A program made the translations under genes and the position numbers. Under the pieces are notes generated by a model. The model had not been told where the DNA came from and searched no databases. It worked only from the letters and a program-made list of their open reading frames with translations. From Fimbriimonas ginsengisoli (GTDB lineage: Bacteria; Armatimonadota; Fimbriimonadia; Fimbriimonadales; Fimbriimonadaceae), in the NCBI GenBank assembly GCA_016179045.1, contig JACOSL010000003.1, positions 1 to 64,000 of the forward strand: a DNA stretch of 64,000 bases, read 5' to 3'. Position 1 is the stretch's first letter. Every line of letters starts with the position of its first letter. Below are positions 60,271-61,847 of this stretch, piece by piece.

Positions 60271-60466
60271 TGTTAGCGCCGTCGCTGCCATCGTATCGCG
60301 CGGCACACCTCGTCGGGTGCAGCCTCTCCGGCCTCCTGATGTTCGCTCCAAGCGGTGCCCAGGCGACGGCCCGCGGGGCTCAAGCCTGATTCGCTGGCTG
60401 CCGCGACCCCAACAGGCCAGCGGGCGCAGCCCCCTCTAGTAATGGCTCCATCGGGGGGAGGGCGGG

Positions 60467-60472
60467 TATAGT
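60467..60472 (+). promoter_or_regulatory. -10 element TATAGT of the leader-peptide/MFS transcript
   Basis: TATAGT lies 10 nt before the leader ATG, so the transcript would begin a few bases before the leader peptide and give a 5' leader of about 90 nt before the transporter ATG. The region 60271-60466 upstream shows no gene. Confidence 0.6.
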
Positions 60473-60482
60473 AGCCCTCGCT

Positions 60483-60512
60483 ATGACCGCGATCCTTTCT
60501 GGCCTCCGCTGA
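60483..60512 (+). CDS. nine-residue leader peptide MTAILSGLR
   Basis: A short ORF starting just after a -10 box and ending 57 nt before the transporter ATG. Its sequence is reminiscent of the leader peptides MTASMRLR (mef) and MTASMRLK (msr) that control macrolide-resistance genes by drug-dependent ribosome stalling. The codons for Ala-Ile-Leu contain CGATCCTT, exactly complementary to the transporter's ribosome binding region, so translation or stalling here could control that gene. Too short for standard gene finding; real translation needs evidence. Confidence 0.55.
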   Translation: MTAILSGLR

Positions 60513-60569
60513 GGCCCCGTCTCGCCCCCCGGCTGCCGCTTATGGCCGCCTCGTGACCGGTAAGGATCG
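60490..60569 (+). promoter_or_regulatory. putative translational attenuator hairpin
   Basis: CGATCCTT (60490-60497, within the leader peptide) is a perfect 8-bp complement of AAGGATCG (60562-60569), which contains the Shine-Dalgarno and abuts ATG 60570. A second hairpin GGCCTC (60501-60506)/GAGGCC (60511-60516) straddles the leader stop codon. Pairing would hide the transporter start. Confidence 0.55.
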
Positions 60570-61847
60570 ATGTTTCCCAAGCAAGTTCTCTCTATAAGCG
60601 CGTTTCGGGCCCTGTGGCTCGGCCAGGCGATCTCCCAGCTCGGAGATTCGTTCTACTACGTGGTCAACGCCTTCATGATCAAGAAGCTGACCGGCTCGGC
60701 CGCCATGGTCGGCTTCAACGGCGTGCTCGAGTGCCTGCCGTTCCTGCTGATCGGCCCGTTCGCGGGCGTGCTCGCCGACCGGCTCGACCGGCGGCGCATC
60801 ATGATCGCCTCCGATCTCGCCTGCTTCCTGACTCTTCTCGGCCTTGGCCTCGTCGTGTTCCTGCGCCCCGTGCCCCCGGTCGAGGCGATCCTCGCGACCT
60901 CGGCCCTCATGTTCATCGCGCGCAGCTTCTTCCTGCCCTCGAAGAATGCGGCTATCCCATCCATCGTGCCCCAAGACCTGCTGCTCAAGGCGAACGCGGC
61001 GAGCGCGTTCACCCAGAACTTCGTGCCGATGATTGGGCTGGCGCTCTCGGCGGGCGTGCTCGGGATTCTCTATTCGATTTCGACGACCTGGTTCTTCCTC
61101 AGCGCGATCCTCGTCAACTCGCTTTCTTTCCTTGGTTCGGCCCTCTTCGTGCGGCAATTGCCCGCCCTAAGGGCTGAGCGCACCGATAGGCCCAAGTCCG
61201 CGATGAAGGAGCTGAGGGCCGGCCTCGGCTACGTGCGTCACAACCATTTGCTCAAGCTGCTCGTGATCCAGGGCGCGCTCATCAACCTCATGGTCGCGCC
61301 GTTCTTCGTTGCCTACGTCGCCGCGAACGAGGCTTGGTTTGGGGGCAAGCCGCAGACCCTAAGCTGGCTGGAGTTCACATTCTTCGCCGGCATGATCGGC
61401 GGTAGCGTCGCGGTCGGCGCGATGAAGAGCAAGCGAGTGGGCGCGCCCTACATGATCGGGCTGGCCGTAGTCGGCCTGACGGTGGCGGCGATGGGGTTGG
61501 TAAAGAGCTTGCCCCTTTGGGTCGTCTGGAACTTGCTTGCGGGATTGGGCCTGCCGTTTGCCCAGATTCCGGTTCAGAGCTACGTGCAGGCGACGGTGCC
61601 CGACGCGTTTCGCGGCCGCGTGCAGAGCGTTTTCTCGATGGCGGGGATCGGAATGCAGCCGCTCGGGCTGGCGCTTGGCGGCGTCATGGTGGATCGGATC
61701 GGCTTGGTGGCCAGCTTCCTCGTGATGGGGCTTGGCATGTCCGCGCCCCTCTTGATCGGCGCGCTCGATCACGACTTTCGCTCAGCGCGGCTGCCCGAAC
61801 ACGAGGCGCCTTACGACGTGGCGGGCGACCCGGTTGCCGCGAGCTAG
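60570..61847 (+). CDS. MFS transporter, DHA3/macrolide-efflux-like
   Basis: A 425-residue inner-membrane protein with about 12 membrane segments. FRALWLGQAISQLGDSFYYVVNAFMIKKLTGSAAMVGFNGVLECLPFLLIGPFAGVLADRLDRRRIMIASDLACFL is typical of the DHA3 (MefA-like) family: the D..GS A.vg loop and GvlaDR.dRR motif A. NAASAFTQNFVPMIG and PFAQIPVQSYVQATVPDAFRGRVQSVF are also family-typical. Likely a proton-driven exporter of drugs or related metabolites. AAGGA lies close to ATG 60570 and is predicted to pair with the upstream leader. Stop shares CTAG with the convergent trpG/pabA. Confidence 0.9.
   Translation: MFPKQVLSISAFRALWLGQAISQLGDSFYYVVNAFMIKKLTGSAAMVGFNGVLECLPFLLIGPFAGVLADRLDRRRIMIASDLACFLTLLGLGLVVFLRPVPPVEAILATSALMFIARSFFLPSKNAAIPSIVPQDLLLKANAASAFTQNFVPMIGLALSAGVLGILYSISTTWFFLSAILVNSLSFLGSALFVRQLPALRAERTDRPKSAMKELRAGLGYVRHNHLLKLLVIQGALINLMVAPFFVAYVAANEAWFGGKPQTLSWLEFTFFAGMIGGSVAVGAMKSKRVGAPYMIGLAVVGLTVAAMGLVKSLPLWVVWNLLAGLGLPFAQIPVQSYVQATVPDAFRGRVQSVFSMAGIGMQPLGLALGGVMVDRIGLVASFLVMGLGMSAPLLIGALDHDFRSARLPEHEAPYDVAGDPVAAS

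Follow-up and report, generated by a model that had tools for sequence, protein, structure and literature searches.

The window, a 64,000-nucleotide stretch on contig 4 of the 2.27-Mb draft genome of an uncultured member of the Fimbriimonadaceae (Armatimonadota) that is the sole genome of its genus, carries a compact leader immediately preceding a transporter gene on the plus strand. The leader opens with a candidate -10 box, TATAGT (60467-60472, plus strand), which has counterparts in the TATAAT-, CATAAT- or TACAAT-like boxes of orthologous leaders and is accompanied by no convincing -35 hexamer. Transcription is predicted to begin at about 60479, some 4 nt 5' of a tiny upstream ORF (uORF) encoding the nine-residue peptide MTAILSGLR (60483-60512, plus strand, stop codon included), whose ATG at 60483 stands ten bases after the box; this uORF is near-leaderless and has no Shine-Dalgarno sequence. 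Its bases +8 to +15 (60490-60497, plus strand), CGATCCTT, are the exact reverse complement of the ribosome-binding segment (RBS) AAGGATCG (60562-60569, plus strand), which abuts the transporter ATG at 60570 and is predicted to be sequestered by pairing with the uORF segment, hereafter the anti-RBS. A hairpin-forming inverted repeat, GGCCTCCGCTGAGGCC (60501-60516, plus strand), spans the uORF stop codon, adjoins the anti-RBS helix in the predicted fold and has a covarying counterpart (helix 2) at the matching place in Fimbriimonas leaders. An initial annotation of this DNA had marked the box, the nine-codon ORF, the 8-bp complement and the hairpin, and all of these coordinates are exact on re-inspection.

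The candidate controlled gene (60570-61847, plus strand) codes for a DHA3-like protein of 425 aa, which matches the Pfam models MFS_1 (1.2e-27) and MFS_3 (5.4e-24) as well as TIGR00900 (203.7 bits, 5.1e-60) and the MefA model (104.9 bits, 4.8e-30), the last two at scores far under the curated cut-offs. Judged by these profiles, it is an MFS transporter nearest to the DHA3-type models TIGR00900 and MefA, and we infer that it functions as a pump in drug export. The earlier designation "macrolide-efflux-like MFS" was therefore correct in outline as to a DHA3-like MFS protein but loose as a label, given how far the TIGR00900 and MefA scores fall below their cut-offs. A profile search of solved structures returned no match at 1e-5. 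The orthologues that bear the leader come from at least 11 genera and show about 41-51% identity, the nearest of them about 50%.

The minimum free energy fold of 60473-60600 contains both the anti-RBS:RBS helix and the stop-codon hairpin, though its energy of -39.2 kcal/mol is unremarkable for the composition (z = -1.06, with 29 of 200 shuffles equally good). As it is not significant, we set the single-sequence fold energy aside as evidence. The interval between 60513 and 60569 holds no T run, and transcription attenuation was ruled out on the ground that no U tract separates leader and gene. An Rfam search of the leaders matched no cis-regulatory RNA family in any of them. At other positions, a Guanidine-III-like match on the minus strand of the window (60273-60338) scores 18.2 bits where 36 is required and is probably due to chance, and a strong but ordinary c-di-AMP riboswitch (RF00379, 90 bits) lies at 677-813 on the minus strand of L005, near the transporter in G022.

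We hold that the decisive sequence evidence for the leader is comparative, its own single sequence proving nothing. Homologues in the family and order to which the window belongs supplied 78 leaders, several with start codons picked by rule, which were scored for an architecture comprising a -10-like box, an ATG 4-14 nt on and an ORF of 2-12 codons closing 5' of the gene. This architecture occurs in 31 of the 78, against 3.9 ± 1.6 in dinucleotide shuffles (maximum 8, n = 100). Removal of L138 and L167, both unlikely cases, and of four near-duplicates left the 25 leaders used below. In these the box and the ATG stand 7-12 nt apart, with twelve leaders at 9 nt, six at 8 and four at 10, implying a 5' UTR of about 1-5 nt if transcription is assumed to begin about 7 nt past the box, and their uORFs are 3-9 codons long. 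All 19 ATGs situated 7-10 nt behind a strong -10 box run into a stop within nine codons, with no stop condition imposed, as opposed to 46 of 135 (34%) of the other ATGs in the same leaders; TAG, TGA and TAA all serve as uORF stops across the set. This early closure argues for selection for a closed short ORF and hence for uORF translation: both the start and the stop appear to be kept by selection, which points to the uORF being translated. By eye about six further leaders fit, namely L043 with a GTG start, L027, L133 and L137 with peptides ending RTR, L135 and L007, and L012, L038, L042 and L047 are orthologues without the leader. L135 retains the uORF (MTATVPN), and the start of its transporter has apparently shifted downstream of the old RBS.

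To assess the pairing itself, every uORF, extended by 12 nt, was matched both to the RBS of its own gene and to those of the other leaders, the register being optimised alike in both cases (n = 25). The longest match is 6.72 bp with the own RBS versus 4.81 ± 0.23 bp with permuted ones, and the pairing energy -15.5 versus -10.6 ± 0.6 kcal/mol; on either measure, 0 of 20,000 permutations reach the observed value. The signal holds when a single leader is taken per genus (n = 11; 0 of 20,000 on length, 5e-5 on energy), and none is seen in the control segments, that is, the sequence 5' of the -10 box, the uORF-RBS interval and homologues without a uORF. Six of the 25 leaders are without a contiguous 6-bp match. 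The window pair CGATCCTT/AAGGATCG has as its equivalents CTTCCGGG/CCCGGAAG in L005 and L009, AACTTCTTT/AAAGAAGTT in L034, CGATCTTCG/CGAAGATCG in L046, AACTCCTA/TAGGAGTT in L016, GACCTTCC/GGAAGGTC in L030 and L149, and TCGTGTT/AACACGA in L143, where the RBS-side segment is no Shine-Dalgarno sequence. From seven leaders of Fimbriimonas, RNAalifold recovers on its own both the uORF:RBS helix and the adjoining hairpin; 12 of 17 pairs show changes on both sides (0 of 500 shuffles), and the signal collapses on sliding the register. In L034, L035, L036, L039 and L040 the loop of the post-uORF hairpin (GCCACC or GTCACC) can pair with a downstream GGTGGC or GGTGGT, so that these Fimbriimonas leaders might form a pseudoknot or adopt another fold. 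The original proposal, an attenuator working through pairing between the uORF and the transporter RBS, is thus upheld by covariation across genera and by the maintenance of the uORF ATG and stop.

The onset of the anti-RBS lies at +13.3 ± 2.8 from the uORF ATG, as against -8.5 ± 7.0 from the uORF end, so that a ribosome at the uORF start would have it inside or close to its footprint; in the window, +8 to +15 would, going by footprint size, be covered by a ribosome holding the AUG in the P site. When the first 28 nt are masked in a folding model, the RBS opens by a mean of 0.19 versus 0.005 for masks elsewhere, and the ribosome mask fails to open the RBS in 6 of the 24 modelled leaders. The uORF peptides differ throughout the orthologues (MRR, MIL, MKQPQLL and MHIRI among them), the sole common trait being a moderate excess of Arg or Lys at codon 2, seen in 14 of 25 peptides (p about 1e-4 when compared with codon-2 usage). 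A kinship of MTAILSGLR with the macrolide-sensing leaders MTASMRLR and MTASMRLK, suggested in the initial annotation, finds no support in this comparison: MTA...LR is found in no leader peptide of an orthologue, and R/K-X-R/K, which the window peptide does not possess, occurs in 1 of 25. Because the peptides are unconserved and the anti-RBS keeps a nearly constant distance to the uORF ATG, the sensor is probably blind to the peptide, and what it reads is probably any block of early translation rather than the peptide or one drug.

Leaderless genes do occur in the clade, to judge by the genome of another family member, G018, in which TATAAT-like boxes 6-7 nt 5' of starts number 23 counts over 590 genes (L233-L271, 780 kb), against 2 counts at gaps 6-7 among 1720 control starts. 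The leaderless peak in G018 falls at gap 6 and the uORF ATGs stand mostly at gap 8-10; for this reason we call the uORFs near-leaderless rather than leaderless, and ribosomes may initiate on them less strongly than they do on genuinely leaderless mRNAs. L013, whose genome is of a different family in the order, seemingly has its transporter starting at a GTG 7 nt past a TATAAT, leaderless and with no uORF leader.

In a 42-homologue tree, the leader is found in one group of 28 rows, 24 of which bear it, and its gain and loss require 5 changes versus 13.8 when shuffled; it is missing from the more distant transporters and a few members of the group. Being confined to one orthologous group, it is a property of that gene, retained even as its sequence was replaced. 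Within the sampled genomes it is also singular. A scan for a -10 box matching at 5 of 6 positions, a gap of 6-11, an ATG, an ORF of 3-10 codons, an ORF of at least 120 aa starting 25-130 nt past the stop and an RBS complement of at least 7 bp returned solely the window leader from 957 kb (42%) of its own genome and, in 800 kb of G018, the transporter only. Relaxing the box to 4 of 6 yields 28 sites with the uORF layout in the same 957 kb, among which, besides the window, one G+C-rich site has a match of at least 8 bp. This other site (L173, minus strand, about 9192) has a 10-bp complement, CGGGCGCGAA, to the downstream start and a weak -10 box, and is likely a chance occurrence. A covariance model of the seven Fimbriimonas leaders matched just those seven in 85 genomes, with one match per genome and each time at the transporter. 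By these searches, the leader has diverged too far for one model to cover, and nowhere else does a recognisable form of it recur.

Taken as a whole, the comparative evidence makes it likely that the leader is a ribosome-mediated translational attenuator of the DHA3-like MFS pump. In the mechanism we envisage, transcription would begin a few bases 5' of the tiny uORF and a ribosome would load onto the near-5'-terminal AUG. Were it to read the 3-9 codons and depart, the segment from about +8 to +25 would pair with the RBS made about 50-115 nt later, leaving the transporter untranslated. Were it instead to stall at the start codon or just past it, its footprint would hide the anti-RBS, the RBS would stay single-stranded and the pump would be made. 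The translation of the uORF, the role of stalling as the signal and that of translation inhibitors as inducers are what we infer for such a device. A bolder form of the proposal, to which we give somewhat less than even chances, is that of a family-wide initiation sensor, in which a near-leaderless uORF of any 3-9 codons has first bases that double as the pump's anti-RBS and any early block induces.

Several other explanations have to be set against ribosome-mediated attenuation. The insignificant single-sequence fold is what a random short ORF with an accidental 8-bp complement might give, but the uniqueness of the site in 957 kb of its own genome and the recurrence of both architecture and covariation in at least 11 genera leave chance with practically no probability for the window and refute it for the family. 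The initial annotation had favoured macrolide sensing, and in a macrolide-specific attenuator of the mef/erm kind MTAILSGLR would arrest a macrolide-bound ribosome at a defined codon, thereby freeing the RBS. A DHA3-like transporter weakly similar to MefA, the Arg/Lys excess at codon 2 and the LR ending of the window peptide are in keeping with this, yet the peptides vary in both sequence and length, the arrest motif and the MTA...LR pattern are not shared among them, and uORFs of 3 codons would put almost no peptide in the tunnel; moreover, mef control is transcriptional, whereas here the RBS itself is paired. Hence, we consider macrolide-specific arrest unlikely.

The Arg/Lys enrichment at codon 2 could also be read as the mark of an amino-acid-starvation attenuator, with an uncharged tRNA stalling the ribosome in the uORF; however, beyond Met no amino acid is common to the peptides, they contain no runs of regulatory codons and the controlled gene is an efflux-type MFS rather than a biosynthetic one, making starvation sensing highly improbable. 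An RNA switch that sequesters the RBS independently of uORF translation, the RBS being freed by a ligand, temperature or a small RNA, would accommodate the covariation of the uORF:RBS helix and adjoining hairpin. It sits poorly with the fact that all 19 strong cases have retained an ATG shortly behind the -10 box and, soon after it, a stop in frame, and neither an aptamer-like core common to the genera nor an Rfam match was seen in the leaders; we regard it as decidedly unlikely.

If attenuation by a ribosome on the uORF is indeed at work here, it has partial parallels in several known systems. In translational attenuators of the Erm/cat type, a ribosome stalled on the leader ORF releases a sequestered RBS, and the leaders come with a Shine-Dalgarno sequence of their own, arrest peptides that are specific and a series of alternative hairpins. 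The release of the RBS by a stalled ribosome would be shared with the leader proposed here, in which, by contrast, the uORF itself is the carrier of the anti-RBS. Leaderless uORFs of mycobacteria sense cysteine. Small regulatory uORFs of this kind in mycobacteria (Canestrari et al.) and AUG-initiated leaders in E. coli (Beck et al.) are cited in PMC9031893, whose sections on them resemble the present case in having a uORF at or near the mRNA 5' end regulate the downstream gene and, unlike for the window family, describe no covarying uORF:RBS helix. The mef(E)/mel and msr arrest leaders MTASMRLR and MTASMRLK likewise involve a short leader peptide 5' of a drug-efflux gene whose MFS product is, broadly, of the DHA3 kind too, but mef control is exerted through a U-tract terminator in a 327-nt leader (PMC4335068); the window leader has neither that length, nor the terminator, nor the conserved macrolide-arrest peptide. 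In E. coli, the eight-codon uORF toiL of the topAI-yjhQP operon base-pairs with the RBS belonging to the gene that follows, and experiments established that a ribosome stalled at its start codon or elsewhere frees this RBS; toiL answers at least five inhibitor classes, and it is at its start codon that tetracycline and retapamulin take effect (PMC12121999). The uORFs of the window family similarly pair a segment of their own with the downstream RBS. However, toiL lies 139 nt upstream of its gene, has its first seven residues conserved and controls a toxin-antitoxin operon with Rho-dependent termination, whereas here the uORF is near-leaderless, the peptides are unconserved, the gene is an MFS transporter and no homologous peptide or topAI-yjhQ is present. 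No paper that mentions Fimbriimonas together with leaderless turned up in our literature search, nor did it list one on an attenuator in Armatimonadota.

The arrangement offers a searchable signature for other phyla: a -10 box, 8-10 nt, an ATG, a stop within nine codons and a complement to the next RBS. If the proposal is correct, a whole bacterial family would govern a single pump through a minimal switch whose uORF and anti-RBS share the same bases, the peptide being irrelevant. Such peptide-independent attenuation, retained family-wide while nearly every base changed, would reveal the minimum that attenuation needs and would tie near-leaderless initiation to drug sensing.
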